Shown: piece by piece, positions 8,380 through 44,221 of the stretch
How the letters are laid out: every line of letters starts with the position of its first letter
Numbering within the stretch: the first letter of the stretch is position 1
IMG/VR virus record: IMGVR_UViG_3300032157_000020
Span: 1-44,221 of that record
Length of the DNA: 44,221 bases
DNA from: a virus
Strand: one strand, 5' to 3'
Notes under the pieces: generated by a model
Databases searched by the model: none
The model's input: only the letters and a program-made list of their open reading frames with translations
Told to the model about the DNA's origin: nothing
Position numbers and translations under genes: made by a program

Positions 8380-8855
8380 TGAACCTCAAAATAGGCAGGG
8401 TTGCCGCGACCGTTGAAGCCACCGGAGTATGTGATGAGAGGTCGGGCGAGCCAGGTTCCGCGCTCGTCCAGATCGTCCGCAATCGTCACGTAGGTCAACA
8501 CGCCGTCGGAGCCGTCCGTCTCGAAAGCTGCCGTTTTCAGCTTCACTGTTCCACTTGGCGCAATCAGTTGAATCTGTTTTGCGGTAACGGAAGAGATATC
8601 GAGCGCCGCGCCGTTTTCCTTCAATAGAACGCGGATGGTGACGCCGACATCGTCTAATTGACAGAACTGCATAACGCCTCCGGTGCCAGAGCCGGTTTGA
8701 GTGACTTCCGAGTTGAGGGTGATTTCGCGCGTGATCCAGGAGACGAGTTCAATCGTGATGCCGCCAACGTCTCCACCGCCGCCTTCGTCTTCTTCCTCGA
8801 GAAGTAGGAGAAGGTCGCCGTCACCCGCCAGTAGCGCCGCGTCCCCGATAATCAT
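8376..8855 (-). CDS. virion protein with acidic low-complexity N-terminus
   Basis: 159 residues. The first 30 residues form a Leu-run followed by Glu/Asp-run and Gly-run (LLLLLEEEDEGGGGDVGG), then a compact beta domain of about 125 residues beginning ITIELVSWITREI. The beta part resembles N-terminal domains of baseplate or fibre-associated proteins (BppU-like pattern), but this is weak. It is coupled to both neighbours by ATGA overlaps, inside the tail-protein run. Confidence 0.65.
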   Translation of the reverse strand: MIIGDAALLAGDGDLLLLLEEEDEGGGGDVGGITIELVSWITREITLNSEVTQTGSGTGGVMQFCQLDDVGVTIRVLLKENGAALDISSVTAKQIQLIAPSGTVKLKTAAFETDGSDGVLTYVTIADDLDERGTWLARPLITYSGGFNGRGNPAYFEVQ

Positions 8856-9790
8856 GCGTGGGTGTAGGCTTCTCTCCAGGCCATGATGGCTCCCGCTCCG
8901 GTCGCCTTATAGATGACGTGGTCGCCGTTGGTGTCGGCCTGAGAGAGCGCAAAGGTATAGAAACCGCTTCCGATCTGAGTGGCGGAACCCGTTGCGGATT
9001 CAAACGCCGCGCCGTCAATTGACCGCTGAACCGTGAGGGTCAATCCCGTCACTCCGGCCTGAGCGTTGGTGGCGTCTCGCATAAAGAACGTGCACCGCTG
9101 GCCGGCTGTGTTTTTCTTGAGATGAAGCTCGCCCGCCACCGCCGCGACTAAGGTGGTCTGCGCGCCAGAGGTCAGGGTCGATTCTGCCGAGATTCGACCG
9201 CTCGAAAGAGCCGCTGGAATCCGGCCCTGAATGTCCTGTGTATCGACTTCGATAGCCGTCGTGTCGACTTCAATGGCTGCCGTCTGAGCTTTGACTGCTG
9301 CCACGTCGGCACTGATGGACGCTCCAACCGGAGCGCCGATTCGCGCGAAACTGTCGCCGGTCTGGGCCGTGTGTCCGGTGAGCGTGGAGACCGTCGGAAT
9401 GACGGCGCCCGTGTGAGTCGTCGCCTGCAAGCGGACGTAGCCACTTCCGTCAATCGCAGGGAGGTCTGCGGTCGCGATGGCGTCGATGACCTGCCAGCAG
9501 CGCAGGGTGTTTCCGGTGATCCCATCCACGATTCCGAGGATCTTGGCGGTATAGAACTTCCCCACTTCAAAGCCGTTGCCAGTCGAGAGGGTGATTTGCT
9601 CGCTATAGAAACCCGTGGTTCCGGCGTCGTCGAGCTTCGCCATGTTGCCCGTCAGGATCGGCGTTCCCGTTTCATCCTCATAGACGCGGTAGGAAGGTAC
9701 CGAATCGGCGTCGGTTTGCTCTCCGGTCGCGTCATGCGTGGCGGCAGTAAATGTAAAGACGTCGTTAATGAGAAGCTGTCCACACCACAT
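8852..9790 (-). CDS. tail / fibre-associated virion protein
   Basis: 312 residues. It has an N-terminal beta domain (about 1-105, with SYRVYEDETGTPILTG typical of fibre or baseplate insertion domains). A short helical repeat zone (AAIEVDTTAIEVDTQDIQGR, about 165-190) probably trimerises as a coiled coil. A C-terminal beta domain follows, with TLTVQRSIDGAAF and GDHVIYKATG. The pattern of head domain, trimeric stalk and tip suits a tail-fibre component. No enzymatic motif. Confidence 0.68.
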   Translation of the reverse strand: MWCGQLLINDVFTFTAATHDATGEQTDADSVPSYRVYEDETGTPILTGNMAKLDDAGTTGFYSEQITLSTGNGFEVGKFYTAKILGIVDGITGNTLRCWQVIDAIATADLPAIDGSGYVRLQATTHTGAVIPTVSTLTGHTAQTGDSFARIGAPVGASISADVAAVKAQTAAIEVDTTAIEVDTQDIQGRIPAALSSGRISAESTLTSGAQTTLVAAVAGELHLKKNTAGQRCTFFMRDATNAQAGVTGLTLTVQRSIDGAAFESATGSATQIGSGFYTFALSQADTNGDHVIYKATGAGAIMAWREAYTHA

Positions 9791-9795
9791 GATTT

Positions 9796-11076
9796 CTACT
9801 CTCCAAAAATGTGTGAGGCGAAAATGCCGCCGCCCGCGCCACCCGCAGATGGCTCGACTACCGTAAATGTGAAAGTGTTCGAGACGCCGTCGTCGGTCTC
9901 AAAGGTCAGGTCGTCGTAAGCGGCCGCGGTTTCGTCGATCGGGATGATTAAGGTGACGTCGGCAGAGAGACCACCACCCGCCGCAGAGAAGCCGGTAAAC
10001 GACCACCCCGCAGGCAGATTGAACGTCGGAGAGGCTCCGTCTAAGCCCGTCCCCACGAGAGCGCATTCGATGTTGACCGTTCCCGTTAAGCTGGGATTTC
10101 GTGTGTACTCATCCGGGGTGATACTGGTAACAATGGGCGCCGCGGCGGCGCTGTTGATCGTGAAGGGAAATCCCGCCGACTCTCCGTTGTCGGTTTCAAC
10201 CGTGATCGTGCAGGCTCCCGGAGTCGCGGAAGAGGTCGCGACGAGATCCGCTTCAATCTCGGTGTCGCTGTTGACCACGACGCTCGTAAAACTCACTTCC
10301 GCATCGGAGCAATCGAGAACCGCATCCCCGCCCATAAACTCGACGGAGAAGCCTGACCCTGTAATCACGATGGGCGTTGTATCGTCCGCGTCGGCGTTGT
10401 CCGGAGTGATATCGGTAATGGTCGGGCCGGCGGCAGCGACTTCTTTCAGCGCGACACCGATAGCGCCCGTATCCATCGAGGAATCGAAGACCCAGGTCAG
10501 GGTGGTGTCTGTCGCTTCTCCTGCCTTGGTCGACATATCCGCCGCGGATACCGTCGTTCCGATGTTCTCTTGCTCGGCTTCCGACGTCTGCCCCGCGTCG
10601 GCTGTGACGGTTCGTGATCCACCCGCTAACAAATGTCCAGCGGCGCCGCCGACAACCAAATCGCCCACGGCGGACGCGATATCGAGCGCGTTGGTCGTAC
10701 CGCCGACATACTGCTTCGCCGCTGTCCCGTGAGGCGTTCCGCCTACATCGACGTTGTAGAACGCTTGGGCGAAGATGCCGCTATAGACCGCCGCCGCCCC
10801 ACCAATCGTGACCGCCAGTGAATTCGTGCCAGTATCTGGATTAAGGAGCTTTGCGAGAAAAACAACGTGGCTCGTGCCGCTCATGACGAGCGAGTCGATA
10901 TTGGTGAGTGCGTCTCCGTTGTAGGTTGCGGAGAATGTCGGCTCACCGGAACCCGTCGCGCAGTAGGCGAACACGATCAAGATTCGATCCGATGAAGATG
11001 GAACCGTGACGTTCAGCGTCGGGTTGTTCTCCGCGCCGAACTTGTCGGAAGCTGCGGTTCCTTTGCCGATTGCCAT
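9796..11076 (-). CDS. virion protein with IPT/TIG Ig-like domains
   Basis: 426 residues. The N-terminal about 210 residues form a Ser/Thr/Gly-rich beta domain. At about 215-310 there is an IPT/TIG-type Ig-like repeat (pattern TITDITPDNAD, then PIVITGSGF), and a second related segment at about 315-410 (IVTSITPDEYTRNP). The C-terminus ends in a Gly-rich segment and GGIFASHIFGE. Ig-like domains of this kind decorate phage virions and help weak attachment to cell-surface glycans; that role is inferred. It lies between the large receptor-binding candidate and a fibre protein. Confidence 0.72.
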   Translation of the reverse strand: MAIGKGTAASDKFGAENNPTLNVTVPSSSDRILIVFAYCATGSGEPTFSATYNGDALTNIDSLVMSGTSHVVFLAKLLNPDTGTNSLAVTIGGAAAVYSGIFAQAFYNVDVGGTPHGTAAKQYVGGTTNALDIASAVGDLVVGGAAGHLLAGGSRTVTADAGQTSEAEQENIGTTVSAADMSTKAGEATDTTLTWVFDSSMDTGAIGVALKEVAAAGPTITDITPDNADADDTTPIVITGSGFSVEFMGGDAVLDCSDAEVSFTSVVVNSDTEIEADLVATSSATPGACTITVETDNGESAGFPFTINSAAAAPIVTSITPDEYTRNPSLTGTVNIECALVGTGLDGASPTFNLPAGWSFTGFSAAGGGLSADVTLIIPIDETAAAYDDLTFETDDGVSNTFTFTVVEPSAGGAGGGIFASHIFGE

Positions 11077-13522: not shown

Positions 13523-13999
13523 TTAGTACTGAACGATGCCGAGTGTGACGGTGAACTTCTCGAGTCCGACCGGGGTGTATGTGTTTCTCGCCACGAGCAC
13601 TCCATAGAGCGTGTTGGCGGAAGCCACGATGTTGAGGTTTAGGACTTGAATGGCGCCGTTGGTATCCGTTGCGCCCATGACGAAACTAGCCACTGGAAAC
13701 GCGATTCGCCCCACAACCGTTTCCATCTGAGCGTCGGTCGGGGTAAATGGCGCGTTATCCGCGTCAAGATCCGTGATATCTGCGGAGAATAACCACAGGT
13801 CCGCGTCGATCTTGGTAGAGGGCGCCGCGCTGTCCTCGAGAATGGCGCTCACGATCATGTACCCACCACCCGTGAACCGATTGCACAAGGCGAAATCGAG
13901 AGTAGACGCCGTGGTTGCCGTGGTAATGACGTCGTTGGCCGCGTATTGGGTGGTATCGTCCGGCCGTGTGATCGAGGCCGTTCTCGTGACCGCGTACAC
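13523..13999 (-). CDS. virion protein (hypothetical)
   Basis: 158 residues starting at GTG, which overlaps the upstream stop (TAGTG at 13999). Beta-rich, with conserved-looking segments such as RFTGGGYMIVSAIL and a mention-worthy LNLNIVASANTLYGVLVAR strand pair. This pattern is common in conserved structural proteins of BPP-1-like phages, but I cannot name the family. Its place between head genes and the receptor-binding protein indicates a virion component. Confidence 0.72.
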   Translation of the reverse strand: MYAVTRTASITRPDDTTQYAANDVITTATTASTLDFALCNRFTGGGYMIVSAILEDSAAPSTKIDADLWLFSADITDLDADNAPFTPTDAQMETVVGRIAFPVASFVMGATDTNGAIQVLNLNIVASANTLYGVLVARNTYTPVGLEKFTVTLGIVQY

Positions 14000-14337
14000 T
14001 AGGACACCATCCGACGGGATACTCTCCCGTTCTTCTCGGCGTTCGCCTTCTCAATGGCTTCCTGGGCGCTCGTGATGGATTCAGGCACGTAATCGTCAAC
14101 GCGCTCCATCCAGTTATGGGAGAACTGATCTTGAGCGGACAGATGCTTCATGATGGGCTGATTCGTCACCGGGTCGCGCTCAATCTGCTGGGTAGTGACG
14201 TTGATCGTCGGGATCTCCCGAGCAAACAGCGTGAATACATCGCCCGGTCGTCGACGTTTCCAGTCGAGCCCATCGTGTACTTTGTCGGGGTAATGTCCGT
14301 CCTGCGTGGCGCGGACTCTAATCGTGTCTTCGGACAT
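13999..14337 (-). CDS. small virion-cluster protein (hypothetical)
   Basis: 112 residues from ATG at 14337, which has a good ribosome site (AGGAGAT, seven bases upstream); a longer open frame to 14439 has no such site. The N-terminus reads MSEDTIRVRATQDGHYPDKV, followed by a DWKRRRPGDVFTLFAREIP segment resembling small conserved head-associated proteins of podoviruses. The C-terminus is helical and charged. Function unknown. Confidence 0.75.
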   Translation of the reverse strand: MSEDTIRVRATQDGHYPDKVHDGLDWKRRRPGDVFTLFAREIPTINVTTQQIERDPVTNQPIMKHLSAQDQFSHNWMERVDDYVPESITSAQEAIEKANAEKNGRVSRRMVS

Positions 14338-25147: not shown

Positions 25148-25378
25148 CTAATGCGGCATCGGTTTATCCTCCAGCGTGATCTTCAGCGAACAGTTCAGAG
25201 CCTCAGCCAGTCGCAACAACGTCCGCAGCGTGGGCAGGTTCTTATCTGCCGGTGATTCCATGCGCGACACCAACTCCTGCGCGGCATTCATGCGCTTCGC
25301 CAGCGCCGTCTGAGTCAGGCCAGCACGGACCCGCGCCTCACGAATCGACTCCGCAATCAGCAGACGGACTTCACGCAT
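25148..25378 (-). CDS. XRE-family HTH regulator
   Basis: 76 residues from ATG 25378, overlapping the upstream stop as TAATG. The helix-turn-helix spans about residues 8-45 (ESIREARVRAGLTQTALAKR, then QELVSRMES). The remainder forms the usual helical cap ending in a short strand (CSLKITLED). Compact regulators of this kind occur as HigA-type antitoxins and phage regulators. No toxin partner of recognisable type is adjacent, so a transcriptional role in the replication block is favoured. Confidence 0.8.
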   Translation of the reverse strand: MREVRLLIAESIREARVRAGLTQTALAKRMNAAQELVSRMESPADKNLPTLRTLLRLAEALNCSLKITLEDKPMPH

Positions 25379-25776
25379 TACCAAAGCCCATCGTGCTCGG
25401 AAGCAGAGACACGACTTCCGGGGGTAAGGGATTCTCTAAAGTCGAGTGCGCGGATCGCTTGTGCGCCAGCATCTCCTTGCCACACCTTCCCGCAACCAGG
25501 TTGATTGCAGACCGTCTCGGAAGACTTTAGCGGGACTTGGATGTGCTTCCTTTCGTCGCGCTCGTTGCATCGAGCCACACTGGCCGACCGACCGCACTCT
25601 TCAGAGCAATACAACTTGGCCCACATATGCAGCGGGCCACCGCAGACCACGCAAGGCGGTCGCCGGGGCTCTTCCCGCAAGCATCGCTTACAGGTACGTG
25701 AGTGGCTCCCGAAGCCTCTCTTTACTGGCTTCTCAATACCGCAACTCTCACAAACACGTCTTCGGAGGGCTCTCAC
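25378..25776 (-). CDS. multi-zinc-ribbon protein
   Basis: 132 residues from GTG 25776, which overlaps the DnaC-like stop (GTGA). It has at least four Cys pairs (CESC, CKRC, CVVC, CSEEC) in the first 75 residues and a further CNQPGC pair, implying two or three zinc sites. The pattern resembles small zinc-finger/HNH-type phage proteins, but no His-Asn-His catalytic set could be assigned. Position after the helicase loader suggests DNA binding or recombination. Confidence 0.65.
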   Translation of the reverse strand: MRALRRRVCESCGIEKPVKRGFGSHSRTCKRCLREEPRRPPCVVCGGPLHMWAKLYCSEECGRSASVARCNERDERKHIQVPLKSSETVCNQPGCGKVWQGDAGAQAIRALDFRESLTPGSRVSASEHDGLW

Positions 25777-29374: not shown

Positions 29375-29970
29375 TACTCCACCTCCGGCAGCGAATCGAT
29401 CACCCTTGCCAACTCGTCAGGCGTGAGCTCGTCCAGTCGCTTTGAAAATTGCGTAATCATGAAGCCGTCAATCTCTCCAAGGCTCGTGATGCCCTTCCGG
29501 CGTAATGTGGCCTTGATCTGCTCCTTCAGGTTTTCCGGTGTGTCCATACAAGTTTCCTTTCTTGATTTGTATTTGGCTTGCCGGTATCGGGCGCAAGCTT
29601 CGCAGTTGCCCGGATACGGCTTCGAATGACCGCGCTTACAGACCTTCGGTTTGTCGGCGTAATAGCGGTTGACGTTCTCGGACTGGGTCACCGGCTCTAA
29701 ATGGGCCGGGTTACAGCAGAGCTGGTTCTTACAGAGATGGTCGAGCGTGAGGCCGTCTTCAATCGGCCCGAGCATCAAGGTATAAGCGACTCGGTGAGGC
29801 CGAAGATTGGCGCCGGGAATGTTCCAGATGCCATACCGGCCACCGCCGTAGACGTTCTTTGTGACGCTCCCCTTCCACTCCCAGCAGTCAATAAGGGTGG
29901 TCTTCTCGACCTTCCTCCAGAATCGGCGTGCCTGCTCATTCGTGAGTGTTGGGATTGGGTAGGGTTTCAT
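29374..29970 (-). CDS. HNH endonuclease fused in frame to a small C-terminal module
   Basis: 198 residues. Residues about 15-140 form an HNH nuclease of the type common as free-standing phage homing enzymes: CWEWKGS, HRVAYTLMLGPI, then LTLDHLCKNQLCCNPAHLEP with His, Asn and His, and a CKRGH/CEAC zinc pair. After residue 140 a separate 57-residue unit begins at an internal ATG (29547) preceded by AGGAAA, so it may also be translated alone. It diverges from the integrase gene with only 15 bp between starts. Confidence 0.82.
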   Translation of the reverse strand: MKPYPIPTLTNEQARRFWRKVEKTTLIDCWEWKGSVTKNVYGGGRYGIWNIPGANLRPHRVAYTLMLGPIEDGLTLDHLCKNQLCCNPAHLEPVTQSENVNRYYADKPKVCKRGHSKPYPGNCEACARYRQAKYKSRKETCMDTPENLKEQIKATLRRKGITSLGEIDGFMITQFSKRLDELTPDELARVIDSLPEVE

Positions 29971-29985
29971 TTAGAATGCCCTCCA

Positions 29986-31131
29986 ATGCGCAAGAAGACT
30001 GGATACGTGCAGCGACGTGGAACGTCGTGGCGAATCGCCTACCATGACGGAGACGGCATTCGACACTTTGAGACCCATCCCACCGAAGAGGACGCCCGAC
30101 GAGAACTTGCCCGCCGATTGGCTGATGTCGCGGGAGGCATACCGGTTTCGTCGAAACCCAACGTCGTTACGTTTCGAGAGCTCGCGTGCGATGTGATCAA
30201 CGATTACAAGGTCAACGGGTACAAGTCCCTTGACGACATGGAGGCCCGGTTCCGCCTGCACATTGACCCGGCGTTTGGATCCAAGAGAGCGGCCGGCATT
30301 ACCACCGCGCAGTTGAACGCGTACATCGTGCGCAGGCGCGCCGAGACTCCAGCCCCGTCTACCGCGACCATCAACCGAGAGCTCGAAGCAATCCGTCACA
30401 CGTTCAAGCTGGCGATTAAGGGCGGCAAGCTGTTCCGGATGCCGCACATCCCCCACCTGAAAGAGAACAACGTCCGCAAGGGCTTCTTTACGCGCGCGGA
30501 AGTGGACGCGCTGTGCGCCGCTCTCCCGGAACCCTATTCGAGCTTCGTGCTGTTCGGGTTTCTCACCGGTTGGCGAAAGGCGGAGATTGCCGAGCTCCGA
30601 TGGACGAACGTGGATTTCGTGGCGGGAGAGATCCGTCTGGACCCAGGGACCACCAAGAGCGGAGAGGGTCGCGTCTTTCCCATGACCGATGAGCTCAGCG
30701 AACTGCTCCAGTCGGTAAAGCCGATGAAGCTCAAGGCGTCCAACTTCAGAGGCGGACTGGAGACCATGGCCGAGAAGCAGGCTCGCTTCGTTCCCTACGT
30801 GTTCTCGATCAACAAGAAACCAGTCCGACAGTTCCAGAAGACATGGAAGCGCGCCTGTAAAGCCGCAGGCCTTCCGGTCATCGAAGATATGCACGGCAAC
30901 GTCATTCGATGCGTGCGCATTTTCCATGACCTGAGACGGAGCGCCGTCAAGCAGTTCATCTTTCAGGGAATACCGGAACGGGTGATCATGCAGATGTGTG
31001 GATGGCAGACACGAAGTGTCTTTGACAGGTACTCGGTTGTCGGTGTGGCGGATCTGGAGATTGCGCGAGAGAAGATCAACGCGGCCAAAAGAGCCGGGAA
31101 TAGAGCCAAAGGGGCAGGCGGAGGCTTGTAA
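29986..31131 (+). CDS. int: tyrosine integrase
   Basis: 381 residues from ATG 29986; upstream in-frame codons would overlap the HNH gene and are rejected. It has an N-terminal arm-type DNA-binding beta domain (GYVQRRGTSWRIAYHDGDG), a SAM-like core-binding domain (about 65-165) and a catalytic domain. Catalytic residues visible are Arg in TGWRKAEI (about 195), HDLR (about 316) and the nucleophile Tyr in DRYSVVG (about 348). It integrates and, with an excisionase, excises the prophage at attP. The attP core begins seven bases after the stop. Confidence 0.93.
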   Translation: MRKKTGYVQRRGTSWRIAYHDGDGIRHFETHPTEEDARRELARRLADVAGGIPVSSKPNVVTFRELACDVINDYKVNGYKSLDDMEARFRLHIDPAFGSKRAAGITTAQLNAYIVRRRAETPAPSTATINRELEAIRHTFKLAIKGGKLFRMPHIPHLKENNVRKGFFTRAEVDALCAALPEPYSSFVLFGFLTGWRKAEIAELRWTNVDFVAGEIRLDPGTTKSGEGRVFPMTDELSELLQSVKPMKLKASNFRGGLETMAEKQARFVPYVFSINKKPVRQFQKTWKRACKAAGLPVIEDMHGNVIRCVRIFHDLRRSAVKQFIFQGIPERVIMQMCGWQTRSVFDRYSVVGVADLEIAREKINAAKRAGNRAKGAGGGL

Positions 31132-31189: not shown

Positions 31190-31537
31190 TTAAACAGCAT
31201 CTTTCCTCCTAAACCCGCCCATCCACTCATACTTAGTCGTCCGCAATGTCCTAGAGCGCGACCGGCGGCTCTTTTCTAAAAGAGCCCGACTTTCCTCGGC
31301 TTTCACTGTCTCTACCGGGGCGTGTGAGCCATCAAAAGAGCCGACTTCAGAGCCAGGGTCTTTACGCACGCCGTTGTACTTTGCGATCAGCCTATCTAGT
31401 TCGGATTCTTCGATCAGATAGCCGCGACGTTCAGGAAGATTCACCGTCGGGAGTTCGCCCGAGTGGATGAGCTTGAGCACGGCGTTGTAACCAATCCTCA
31501 GCTTCACCTTGACCTCTCGCGGCGTTAGTAGATTCAA
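31190..31537 (-). CDS. xis: excisionase-like HTH protein
   Basis: 115 residues from TTG 31537, which overlaps the preceding stop (TTGA) and follows GGGGAG. The first about 60 residues match the MerR/excisionase HTH_17 pattern: LTPREVKVKLRIGYNAVLKL, then GELPTVNLPERRGYLIEESE and LDRLI. A basic Ser/Arg-rich tail follows (SRRSRSRT). The gene ends nine bases from the attP core and is the last of a leftward operon, as expected for an excisionase. The family is confident; the recombination role is inferred. Confidence 0.78.
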   Translation of the reverse strand: MNLLTPREVKVKLRIGYNAVLKLIHSGELPTVNLPERRGYLIEESELDRLIAKYNGVRKDPGSEVGSFDGSHAPVETVKAEESRALLEKSRRSRSRTLRTTKYEWMGGFRRKDAV

Positions 31538-31767
31538 GACTCCCCCATCATCCTGTTCAGCGCCGCCACTTCGTCGACGGCGTTCCCTTCAACTTCCGAC
31601 TGTGTCCAGATGCCCGCCAGCATGTAGGACTCGTTGGCCTGACACCGGAGGCACTTCTGAAGCACGGTCGTCGTCGGCATCGCCATGAACGGCAGGACGC
31701 TTTCCTTGGGCTCGATGGCTCTCACTCCGACAACCTTCCACTTGTGACCGAAGATTTTGCAGCGCAT
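31534..31767 (-). CDS. small zinc-ribbon-like hypothetical protein
   Basis: 77 residues with MRCKIFGHKWKVVG at the N-terminus and QKCLRCQANE at about 38-47, giving Cys3, His8, Cys40 and Cys43, a plausible single zinc site. Similar C-x4-H...C-x2-C proteins occur widely in phages without known function. The ribosome site GGAG precedes the ATG, and its stop overlaps the excisionase-like start. Confidence 0.7.
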   Translation of the reverse strand: MRCKIFGHKWKVVGVRAIEPKESVLPFMAMPTTTVLQKCLRCQANESYMLAGIWTQSEVEGNAVDEVAALNRMMGES

Positions 31768-31788
31768 ACAGACTCCAGACAGACAGAT

Positions 31789-32061
31789 TCAGACGGAAAG
31801 CCCGCGGTTGCGTCGGATGTCCTGCACTAGCAGCCGTGCGGACTTACGCGCATCGCGCGTGGAAGCGCCGCCGACGTAGTTCTGCCGGGCCCAATAGTCG
31901 ATTGCTTCCTTCTTGTGGCACACCGGACACGGGATGTATTCCGCAGGTGCGTAGAGGTCGCCATTGCTGTCGCAGTGGTCAGCGTCGAAAAGCTGCCCGT
32001 CCATGCAGATGGAGTCCGGGTAGCTCGCGCCGAATTCATAGCCTTGATATCCGCAGCTCAC
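31789..32061 (-). CDS. Cys/His-rich hypothetical protein
   Basis: 90 residues from GTG 32061 with GGAGG five bases upstream and directly abutting the previous stop. It includes DADHCDSNGDLYAPAEYIPC and CPVCHKKEAIDYW, a potential zinc site. A positively charged C-terminus follows (RDARKSARLLVQDIRRNRG). No family identified. Confidence 0.68.
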   Translation of the reverse strand: MSCGYQGYEFGASYPDSICMDGQLFDADHCDSNGDLYAPAEYIPCPVCHKKEAIDYWARQNYVGGASTRDARKSARLLVQDIRRNRGLSV

Positions 32062-32421
32062 CTAGACCTCCACCCTCTCTTCAATTACCACCGACTCCAC
32101 CAGCGGTCTCACCTGCTCTTCAATCTGCGATAAGCGGTCGATCTCCGCGAATTGTGCGGGTGTCAGACGAAGCACGTCGTTGGCGTAGACGATTGCGTGA
32201 TCCGGATTGCTGTCAGGTCTCAACCGCACTCCGGAAGCCGTGCTCCAGCTTGGCGGCATGATGAACGTCGCCATCAGGTGCTTTCCGATTCTCGCGCACT
32301 GGTCGTCGTTGCCGGATTCATGAAGATGGATAAAGGCGCACTTACTGCCACCACCGGCAGTACTGGGCTCACCGCCGATCCACTGCTTCTCCCACCCGTC
32401 GAAGACGCTCTTGATCTCCAT
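32062..32421 (-). CDS. hypothetical protein in the leftward operon
   Basis: 119 residues from ATG 32421 with AGGAG upstream. The N-terminal two thirds are mixed alpha/beta with Trp- and His-containing segments (CAFIHLHESGNDDQC, ATFIMPPSWSTASGV). The C-terminal helix is acidic (QFAEIDRLSQIEEQVRPLVE). It lies directly after the Cro-like gene. No family is recognised; small proteins at this spot in temperate phages often counter host defences, but nothing here proves that. Confidence 0.65.
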   Translation of the reverse strand: MEIKSVFDGWEKQWIGGEPSTAGGGSKCAFIHLHESGNDDQCARIGKHLMATFIMPPSWSTASGVRLRPDSNPDHAIVYANDVLRLTPAQFAEIDRLSQIEEQVRPLVESVVIEERVEV

Positions 32422-32429
32422 GGATTCTC

Positions 32430-32648
32430 CTAGGCTGACTTCTTCTCAGTAACCGTGACTTCGAGCCCCAACGCTTTCGCAACGCGCGAGTAGGTGTCAA
32501 TCGTCGGAACCTTCACGCCGCGAAACATCTGGTAGAGGGTTGCCACGCTGACGCCGGATAGCGCCGATAGCTGACGCACGCTCAAACGGGGCTGCTTCCT
32601 GAATGCGCTCTTAAGTGCCCTAACCTCGGGCCGAATCAGTGTGCTCAT
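32430..32648 (-). CDS. XRE-family regulator, Cro-like position
   Basis: 72 residues, single HTH domain: about 20-57 contains LSVRQLSALSGVSVATLYQM and FRGVKVPTIDTYSRVA. The N-terminus is basic. No peptidase or oligomerisation domain is present, as for Cro-type repressors. The ATG lies only nine bases after a strong -10 element, so its mRNA would be almost leaderless; no Shine-Dalgarno is present. It is the first gene of the leftward operon that ends in the excisionase-like gene, with twin operator-like sites in its promoter. Confidence 0.82.
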   Translation of the reverse strand: MSTLIRPEVRALKSAFRKQPRLSVRQLSALSGVSVATLYQMFRGVKVPTIDTYSRVAKALGLEVTVTEKKSA

Positions 32649-32650
32649 GT

Positions 32651-32686
32651 GTGCACTAAAGTAAATGCATGAGTACTAAAAGTCAA
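32651..32686 (-). promoter_or_regulatory. leftward promoter with twin octamer operators
   Basis: On the minus strand, TTGACT (32681-32686), a 17-bp spacer and TACTTT (32658-32663). Octamers GTGCACTA (32651-32658) and GAGTACTA (32671-32678), as read on the plus strand, lie exactly 20 bp apart, one after the -10 and one in the spacer. The arrangement matches the rightward promoter at 33367-33402 almost position by position. Confidence 0.8.
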
Positions 32687-32812
32687 ACGGATTTTTTGTA
32701 AAGGGTAAAATCTGTTCCGAGAATTTCTAAACTAACTTGATTACAGCGGGCGCCGCGCTGGGATATTCTTGGCCGGACGATCAAAAGCACTACCGCAGGA
32801 GGACTATTGGTG

Positions 32813-32980
32813 ATGGCACGCATGGACGCGCAGGCAAACGCACGGAAGCACCTCAACTATATTCTGAAGAACGGTTCGGTGGTGGTAGTGGGGCGGGTGA
32901 TTAGGTATCTGGAGAAGATCAGCGAACTCGTCTCTTCCCTATCCTCAAAAAGTCAGACACGTGACCGGCGCAGTCGGTAA
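32813..32980 (+). CDS. 55-residue ORF inside the immunity region
   Basis: ATG 32813 follows a consensus AGGAGG ten bases upstream (a GTG at 32810 is an alternative). The product begins MARMDAQANARKHLNYILKN and has a Val run (SVVVVGRVI) and a basic C-terminus. It is convergent with, and its last 62 bases antisense to, the repressor gene at 32919. No family recognised. The perfect ribosome site argues for translation. A weak promoter (TTGATT at 32737) and a GC-rich hairpin at 32743-32760 precede it. Confidence 0.6.
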   Translation: MARMDAQANARKHLNYILKNGSVVVVGRVIRYLEKISELVSSLSSKSQTRDRRSR

Positions 32981-33308
32981 CCAGGCGGCGCGTTGTGGTG
33001 TGAGATAGTCCCTCGCGGAGCGTGCGCAGCACGTCCACGTCGTCCTTCGACAGCTTCTTCGCTTCGTCAATCTCGGACTCCAGCAACAGTCGTTGAAAGA
33101 ACACATAGAGCGACGTGTCGCAGGCGATAAGCCAGTCGTTGAGCGTTTCAACGGTGGGACTGGAATCCCCGCGCTCCAGCTTGTACACGTGTTCCTTGCT
33201 GATTTTGGCGCGCACGGCGAATTTCTCCACAGACGTCACACCAGCAGAGTCCATGTAATTCAGTCGCAGCGCCTTTAGTTCAGCTTTTACCCAATCTCGC
33301 AACTTCAA
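32919..33308 (-). CDS. XRE-family repressor (CI-like position)
   Basis: 129 residues from TTG 33308 with GGAAAG just upstream. The HTH lies at about residues 22-60 (VTSVEKFAVRAKISKEHVYK, then LERGDSSPTVETLNDW). The C-terminal half is helical and acidic (LLLESEIDEAKKLSKDDVDV) and could dimerise; there is no LexA-type peptidase domain, so induction cannot rely on self-cleavage. It lies between the two outward-facing operator-promoters, where a lysogeny repressor is expected. Confidence 0.8.
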   Translation of the reverse strand: MKLRDWVKAELKALRLNYMDSAGVTSVEKFAVRAKISKEHVYKLERGDSSPTVETLNDWLIACDTSLYVFFQRLLLESEIDEAKKLSKDDVDVLRTLREGLSHTTTRRLVTDCAGHVSDFLRIGKRRVR

Positions 33309-33366
33309 TCTTTCCGGCCCTCGTCGCCTCGTAAAGAGTGTGGGCCACAGTCATGCACTTTTGTAC

Positions 33367-33402
33367 TTGACACATAGTGTACGGCTGGGTACTATAGTGC
33401 AC
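33367..33402 (+). promoter_or_regulatory. rightward early promoter with twin octamer operators
   Basis: TTGACA (33367-33372), a 17-bp spacer and TACTAT (33390-33395), a near-consensus sigma70 promoter. TAGTGTAC (33375-33382) and TAGTGCAC (33395-33402) lie exactly 20 bp apart and overlap the spacer and the end of the -10. The same octamers in the same geometry mark the leftward promoter at 32651-32686. It drives the long plus-strand early operon after a leader of about 58 bases. Confidence 0.85.
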
Positions 33403-33460: not shown

Positions 33461-33676
33461 ATGGCACTAACGAACTTCCTGAACACGCCGCTACCGGCAG
33501 TTATCAACGTCGACGTGGCCGAAGAGGGAGAGACCTGCGAACTGAATGCAGGTCGTTGTGAGGACTGCCATATGGGAGAGAAATTCACGGATGAAGACAA
33601 CGACTATCCCGTTTGTTACGGATGCCTGATGCACGCCCGCCGAGAGCTGTGGGCGGATGCGAGAGTGGAGGACTGA
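33461..33676 (+). CDS. first early gene: small zinc-binding protein
   Basis: 71 residues; AGGAG precedes the ATG. Two Cys pairs (CEDCHMGEKF and CYGCLMHAR) plus an upstream Cys form a plausible zinc-binding treble-clef. It is the promoter-proximal gene of the early operon, where phages often keep host-takeover or regulatory proteins. Function unknown. Confidence 0.72.
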   Translation: MALTNFLNTPLPAVINVDVAEEGETCELNAGRCEDCHMGEKFTDEDNDYPVCYGCLMHARRELWADARVED

Positions 33677-42983: not shown

Positions 42984-44221
42984 TTACTTACGCTTCTTGG
43001 CCTCGAGCGCCTTACGAATGGTTTCTCTCCACTGCGTAAAGGTTCTGGCGTTTGCTCCGAAGCCGAATTCCACATCGCCGGCACGACTGAGAGCTTCTGC
43101 GATTGCGTCGGTTTGCTCATTCACGACAAGCTCCCGAACGGAGGCTTCAATCTTTTTGTAAAGCGGGTTATTGCCGTCGACTTCGATGGCCTTTGCCAGA
43201 CGGCCCGGAGACTCCTGAAATCCTTTAAGTTCGGGATAGGCCGCTTTGACGCCCCTAACTCTTCGACCGCCTTCCTCGATTCGACCTGTTACTGGATCTC
43301 GGAAACCGACGGTTCGGCCGGTCATTTCCCCGACGGCGCCGCCCTGAATCTCTTGTTGAATGGCCTTCATCCTCATGAGCGTGGCATCGTCGATGGCTTC
43401 CCGAACCGGATCCAGCGCTTTTCCAACCTGACCGAGCGATTCCGCCGACATGCGCGCTTTGACGTGTTTGCCCCATTCCGCGGGTATTCCTCGGACATAG
43501 GCTTCTCGTTCCGGCGCCGGAGTGACCAGTGTTCGGCGTGGTGGTTGAGGTTCCGGCAGAAGACCGCGAATCGGCCGGCGCGCATACTCCGCAGGAATAC
43601 CCCTGACATAGGCTTCTCGTTCCGGCGCCGGAGTGACCAGTGTTCGGCGTGGTGGTTGAGGTTCCGGCAGAAGACCGCGAATCGGCCGGCGCGCATACTC
43701 CGCAGGAATACCCCTGACGTAGGCTTCTGGAGTCGGAGGCGGCGTCACGAGAGCGCCAGTCCCCAGGTATCCCGCGACATTCACTGGCTTCACTTCTACC
43801 GGATGTGGTTTGACCGTCCAGCGTTCAAAGGCTCCACGTATCAGAGCATCGGCCGAGTTGCGCTCCCGGATGAAATCAGGGATCTTCCGCCCAAGTAGAG
43901 CAGGGCCAAAGTTCTCGACAACGGCGGCCCTCGGAGAAAACGGAAACCGCGCTACACCCTTTGCCACTTCAAACCCGGCCTGCAACTTTCCAATCTGCTG
44001 AGTCAGGCTATCCGGCTGTTGACGATTGGCGACATTGACTCGGCGCGCCGTTTCACGCTCGAGATTCATCAGGGCGCCGTAACGCTTCTGAAGTTCCCGC
44101 GGTCCACTGCCGCCGCCTTCAATATCGAACGAGTTATAGATGAGCTTTCGGAGAGCGCCGGCCTCCGCGACAAGTGCTGCTGTTTCCGGATTAGCCCGCT
44201 TGGCGACATTCCGCGCGGCCG
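42984..44221 (-). CDS. large virion protein spanning the circular join (C-terminal part)
   Basis: C-terminal half of the 723-residue protein that starts at 1061. The open frame reaches the right edge and includes the 127-base overlap. Its first internal methionine, MNLERETARR, is at 44069 but is not the true start. The middle of this half holds a Pro/Arg-rich tandem repeat of 37 residues (unit begins AYVRGIPAEYARRPIRGLLP), present twice plus a partial third copy. The C-terminus is charged and helical, ending in a Lys/Arg-rich stretch with stop TAA at 42984. The likely role is a virion-internal or DNA-ejection protein, inferred from position and composition only. Confidence 0.8.
   Translation of the reverse strand, partial: AARNVAKRANPETAALVAEAGALRKLIYNSFDIEGGGSGPRELQKRYGALMNLERETARRVNVANRQQPDSLTQQIGKLQAGFEVAKGVARFPFSPRAAVVENFGPALLGRKIPDFIRERNSADALIRGAFERWTVKPHPVEVKPVNVAGYLGTGALVTPPPTPEAYVRGIPAEYARRPIRGLLPEPQPPRRTLVTPAPEREAYVRGIPAEYARRPIRGLLPEPQPPRRTLVTPAPEREAYVRGIPAEWGKHVKARMSAESLGQVGKALDPVREAIDDATLMRMKAIQQEIQGGAVGEMTGRTVGFRDPVTGRIEEGGRRVRGVKAAYPELKGFQESPGRLAKAIEVDGNNPLYKKIEASVRELVVNEQTDAIAEALSRAGDVEFGFGANARTFTQWRETIRKALEAKKRK
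43494..43717 (-). repeat. 111-bp tandem repeat within coding sequence
   Basis: Two virtually identical consecutive 111-bp units (period measured between ACATAGGC at 43495 and 43606) followed by a short partial third unit. The length is a multiple of three, so the reading frame is kept and the protein carries a 37-residue Pro/Arg-rich repeat. The near-perfect DNA identity points to recent duplication. The true copy number could be collapsed or expanded in assembly. Confidence 0.9.
44095..44221. repeat. terminal direct repeat, right copy
   Basis: Exact copy of bases 1-127. It lies in the interior of the large virion-protein gene that spans the circular junction, and no second copy of the coding information is implied. 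See the left copy for interpretation. Confidence 0.95.

Follow-up and report, generated by a model that had tools for sequence, protein, structure and literature searches.

A candidate lambda-like immunity switch with five operator sites and a short repressor lacking a recognised peptidase domain

The DNA analysed here (the window) is the whole 44,221-base IMG/VR virus record IMGVR_UViG_3300032157_000020, in which a gene for a 129-aa XRE-family protein lies between two outward-facing early promoters, PL and PR, each overlapped by copies of a short octamer (Table 1). The first 127 bases of the window recur as a direct repeat at its end (1-127 = 44095-44221), and the record is therefore probably a complete, circularly closed genome. 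Its terminase has relatives in Vibrio phage 1.021 (47-49% identity) and in Salmonella phages (43%). Both an integrase and an excisionase-like protein are encoded, and the phage is therefore temperate; the virus is most likely a temperate podovirus-like phage of bacteria, with the region described here serving immunity and lysis-lysogeny control.

Table 1. Genes, promoters and predicted operator sites of the switch region, in window coordinates
Feature	Position	Strand	Basis
HTH_17 excisionase-like protein, last gene of the PL operon	31190..31537	-	profile search
Three further small PL-operon genes (77 aa DUF1660, 90 aa, 119 aa)	31534..32421	-	ORFs, profiles
72-aa XRE protein, first PL gene; likely Cro or anti-repressor	32430..32648	-	profile; counterpart in second phage
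OL site 2, TAGTGCAC, between -10 and start codon of the 72-aa XRE gene	32651..32658	-	octamer scan, alignment, matrix
PL, early leftward promoter (TTGACT 32686-32681, 17 bp, TACTTT 32663-32658)	32658..32686	-	sequence; same layout in second phage
OL site 1, TAGTACTC, in spacer	32671..32678	-	alignment, matrix
57-aa ORF, AGGAGG just upstream	32807..32980	+	ORF list
129-aa XRE protein, putative repressor, TTG start; HTH_3 at residues 25-67	32919..33308	-	profile search, homology, model
OR site 3, AAGTGCAT, inverted, centre 22 bp upstream of site 1	33353..33360	-	alignment
PR, early rightward promoter (TTGACA 33367-33372, 17-bp spacer, TACTAT 33390-33395)	33367..33395	+	sequence; promoter scan; alignment with second phage
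OR site 1, TAGTGTAC, within -35/-10 spacer	33375..33382	+	octamer scan, alignment, matrix
OR site 2, TAGTGCAC, overlapping -10 end and start region	33395..33402	+	octamer scan, alignment, matrix
71-aa CxxC protein, first PR-operon gene, no HTH	33461..33676	+	profile search

The initial annotation had placed two outward promoters around the repressor gene, and both are correct in position and orientation on sequence check. Its description of them as near-identical operator-promoters overstates their resemblance, and 'similar' is the better word: outside the hexamers 12 of 25 positions agree (permutation p = 0.005), OL site 1 matches TAGTGCAC at only six of eight positions, and the -10 element of PL, TACTTT, is weak, with a 3/6 match to TATAAT. 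Of the two promoters, only PR was listed by a strict sigma-70 scan. The window's own PL/PR resemblance, taken alone, is modest and, without the related phage described below, would be suggestive rather than decisive. What does hold at both promoters is the geometry of the tandem octamers: at OL as at OR they are exactly 20 bp, two turns of the helix, apart, and their register relative to -35 and -10 is the same. Sites that overlap promoters are in the classic position for repression.

At OR, the two sites previously described are joined by an inverted third one that had been missed, such that a count of two sites per operator applies to OL only; measured from centre to centre, successive OR sites are separated by 22 and 20 bp, about two helical turns in each case. 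These sites do not define a clean palindromic operator, their dyad symmetry being weak, at best 0.475 of paired positions, and the loose octamer by itself occurs no more often in the window than expected (20 matches at one mismatch, versus 28). One exact copy of TAGTGTAC, at 13994-14001 (-) in the late region, was rejected as an operator, because there the TAG stop of one gene and the GTG start of another overlap. The search for a promoter of the repressor gene itself gave nothing convincing (best score 6.5 of 12), as might be expected if that promoter were weak or dependent on an activator and lay near the third OR site.

The promoter-operator DNA pattern taken from the window matched a single contig among 2.9 million viral contigs, where about 0.01 matches per 1e11 bases are expected by chance. 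This contig, the 49.6-kb record IMGVR_UViG_3300010401_000808 (the second phage), carries the match at the equivalent position beside a homologous XRE repressor gene, with PR aligning to TTGACA-17-TACTTT at 10292; the repressor gene has the same place and orientation, with a matching leftward promoter, a PL-type layout at 8709 (-), on its far side. A pattern made from the left promoter matched both promoters of the second phage and no other viral contig. A looser pattern, with a chance expectation of about 0.7 per 1e11 bases, found nothing in the bacterial genomes scanned and one extra viral contig, which is AT-rich, has AATAGTGAACTTTA repeats and no XRE gene, and was set aside as a chance match. 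An initial view that, apart from the switch, the second phage has no relationship to the window phage was dropped on account of head-region proteins common to both (about 26-53% identity); judged by these proteins, both belong to one phage lineage, in which they are distant from each other.

For each phage, a matrix was trained on its four octamers and run over the whole genome of the other to find tandem pairs. With the second-phage matrix, the pairs at 33375 (+) and 32678 (-) rank first and second in the window (20.0 and 16.8, versus 12.0 for the next), and with the window matrix the two promoters of the second phage likewise rank first and second (23.2 and 13.7, versus 12.8), the top pairs having 20-bp spacing in both directions. 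The genome search for the 20-bp octamer pair that had been proposed at the outset returns PR and PL as its two best results. As to the accompanying caution that the octamer might occur many times at random, the single octamer is indeed not enriched, and it is the 20-bp tandem pair that stands out.

The two phages agree in further respects. Outside the hexamers, their rightward promoters are identical at 17 of 25 positions (p = 5e-6), and within the second phage the left and right promoters agree at 19 of 25. The TGCACTTTT of OR site 3 starts 13 bp before the -35 of PR in both; a third inverted copy upstream of PL is absent from both in the alignment, and the site count is three at OR and two at OL in each, with every site position resting on two phages, since only one relative was found. 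In the alignment of the two control regions no stretch outside the sites stands out, which points to selection on the sites. The OL/OR-type layout proposed by the initial annotation, with operators over both early promoters, is thus supported and recurs in the second phage, and this conservation makes the operator reading much stronger than could be known from the window alone.

The 129-aa protein scores 27.3 bits against HTH_3 (cut-off 23) and is 54% identical to the second-phage repressor over residues 3-78 (E 5.6e-17); identity is about 52-54% in the HTH part and 46% over the full-length alignment. The recognition-helix regions read SKEHVYKLE in the window and SSRHINKLE in the second phage. 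A two-sequence AlphaFold model has a helical HTH domain (pLDDT 75-89) and a helical C-terminus of low confidence, with pLDDT below 50 from residue 100 on; for the HTH domain, the closest solved structures come from HTH_3 regulators and controller proteins, at weak E-values. A tblastn search against 50,697 phage records gave no relative at E 0.01, and protein searches gave none in viral contigs or genome contigs and only weak XRE matches in plasmids; with the two-phage alignment or the second-phage repressor as query, the second phage alone was returned. The earlier description of this protein as a repressor without a peptidase domain is borne out, in that no S24 peptidase (PF00717) match was obtained in the window or the second phage, the S24 control being positive in 13 of 14 genomes. 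The lambda route of RecA-stimulated self-cleavage is therefore unlikely, and the question already raised of how a peptidase-less repressor is induced is upheld. A search for the Bro-N antirepressor domain (PF02498) had no match in either phage.

The small XRE protein encoded first on the PL transcript scores 38.4 bits against HTH_3 (cut-off 23) and has a counterpart of 87 aa, also the first PL gene, in the second phage. The start codon lies 10 nt past the PL -10 in the window and 8 nt past it in the second phage, and the small XRE mRNA is therefore probably leaderless or almost leaderless; both genes open with (A/G)TGAGCACA. Identity between the two proteins is only about 30%, a pairwise comparison of them giving E 0.002, and their recognition-helix regions read SVATLYQMF (window) and SESAVSKFF (second phage). 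A further protein-search match of the 72-aa protein was discarded, because neither this XRE protein nor the phage that encodes it is related to those described here. Among the small proteins of the early transcripts, only the PL XRE protein has a second-phage counterpart by position, start and fold class, and we infer that it is the best candidate for an antagonist of the repressor, likely a Cro protein.

An HTH_17 protein is also present within the PL operon of the second phage. The 57-aa ORF, which has a good ribosome-binding site, is convergent with the repressor gene and overlaps its 3' end, has the position of lambda rex. In the second phage, too, small ORFs occupy the interval from PL to the repressor gene, and the 55-aa ORF at the same place there has no detectable homology to the 57-aa ORF. 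This interval of the second phage also holds a hicA/hicB toxin-antitoxin pair, at 9049-9481 (-), in the position of lambda rexAB. On the rightward side, no HTH was found in the first operon gene of either phage.

Some further observations concern other parts of the genome and other phages. At 29949-29986 of the window, a TTGGGA-17-TAGAAT promoter stops 9 nt before the integrase ATG (29986), which is the best fit to the integrase N-terminus and lies well inside the listed 476-aa ORF; the integrase mRNA, like the small XRE mRNA, may be leaderless. A third XRE protein of 78 aa is encoded at 25148-25384 (-), distant from the switch. Contigs L003-L007 carry a Sak4-like recombination protein 66% identical to that of the window; L005 and L007, which have long flanks, were rejected as relatives of the switch because their regulator genes differ from those of the window, and their combination of a kept Sak4-like protein with different regulator genes is a clear case of immunity-region swapping relative to the window.

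We consider it probable (about 0.82) that the 129-aa XRE protein acting on the octamer operators at PL and PR constitutes the immunity switch of this phage, a reading that draws, at the level of sequence, on the sites with their spacing and register, the third site, the gene order, the conservation in the second phage and the lack of an S24 peptidase match. The 129-aa protein would occupy the two OL and three OR sites, probably cooperatively, and so block RNA polymerase at both promoters, keeping the prophage silent and conferring immunity against phages of the same kind. Once repression is lost, PL would yield the small XRE protein from its almost leaderless mRNA and, further along, the excisionase, while PR would switch on the operon of replication and lytic genes. 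Competition by the small XRE protein at the same sites would probably follow, chiefly at the third one, which faces the repressor gene; alternatively, this protein may disarm the repressor directly. Induction would on this scheme proceed via an anti-repressor rather than by RecA-dependent self-cleavage. A more specific version, in which the arrangement is a mirror image of lambda, with a leaderless PL-side XRE protein as Cro, its operator overlapping its own start region, relieving a non-cleavable repressor directly through heterodimer formation or competition and thus enabling SOS-free induction, is tentative and rather doubtful.

The octamers might instead be operators of the 72-aa XRE protein, with PL autoregulated, PR co-regulated and the 129-aa protein having another role. 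Consistent with this, the small XRE start codon is separated from the -10 by OL site 2 in both phages, and both proteins have a Cro/C1-type HTH. However, the sites are kept between the phages and it is in the repressors, rather than in the small XRE proteins, that the recognition-helix region is better conserved; moreover, the gene between the site clusters is that of the 129-aa protein. We regard sole control by the 72-aa protein as unlikely, though the two assignments are not exclusive by comparison with lambda, where repressor and Cro both bind the same sites.

That the shared sequence marks an extended class of early promoter, with sigma-contact or initial-transcribed-region elements and no repressor binding, is very improbable. 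Both promoters do combine the -10 variant TACTWT with an adjoining AGTGCAC, and each phage has only two such promoters; however, the inverted third copy lies outside any promoter at a conserved offset, the spacer octamer is outside the usual polymerase contacts, and a repressor gene sits between the promoters in both phages. Chance resemblance of the two promoters is harder still to credit: the left-right p value of 0.005 from the window alone and the lack of enrichment of the loose octamer would leave some room for it, but the recurrence at both promoters of the second phage and the reciprocal genome-wide ranking contradict it.

As in lambda, the repressor gene lies between outward early promoters with operators overlapping both, accessory genes are located between PL and the repressor gene (in lambda, rexAB), and an excisionase is encoded on the PL transcript. 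In contrast to lambda, the 129-aa repressor is without a self-cleaving domain, there are five sites (two OL, three OR) rather than six with three on each side, the Cro-like XRE gene is first on PL whereas lambda cro is on PR, and no N- or CII-like genes were recognised. With no recognised peptidase domain, no set of six sites and no cro on PR, the switch does not belong to the lambda CI type, but its logic appears lambda-like.

The closest parallel in site number is the immB region of N15 and phiKO2, where three OR and two OL sites are bound by one CB repressor (PMC4997575, PMC4488713), as many per side as in the window phage. In N15/phiKO2, OL controls repA, cro is on the OR side and the site motif is T-A-N10-T-A (PMC4997575, PMC4488713), whereas here the site sequences differ and the PL gene encodes an XRE protein rather than RepA; homology to CB is not indicated, the tblastn search with the 129-aa protein (50,697 phage records) being without a match at E 0.01. 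PY54, of the same group, has leaderless cro and cI mRNAs (PMC4488713). Rhizobium phage 16-3 has two sites per side, oL1, oL2, oR1 and oR2 (PMC12429752), and is alike in its paired left and right operators, although OR here has a third site. Mycobacteriophage BPs has a short repressor, gp33 (136/103 aa), with an operator between the -10 and -35 of PR (PMC4557955), both features shared with the window phage; in BPs, attP is inside the repressor gene, immunity is integration-dependent and operators occur at five dispersed regions (PMC4557955), whereas there is no sign of integration-dependent immunity here, the integrase gene being about 1.8-2 kb from the repressor gene.

Among solved structures, the controller protein C.Esp1396I (PDB 3clc, 4i6t) is a neighbour of the HTH domain, with TM up to 0.82 over the target, at weak Foldseek E-values (0.02 or above) and with no restriction-modification genes noticed adjoining. 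As a class, restriction controller proteins bind adjacent dimer sites cooperatively.

The overall logic is already known. What would be new is that a non-cleavable repressor is paired with a Cro-like XRE gene that lies on the PL side and is probably leaderless; to our knowledge, from a literature search that was not exhaustive, no such case has been described. The system is a compact, sequence-defined switch of five sites and two small XRE proteins, conserved in two distant phages, with a repressor that has no match among the cultured phages searched. It provides exact DNA targets for asking how a switch built on a non-cleavable repressor is thrown, and its promoter-operator signature can serve in metagenome searches for homoimmune phages.
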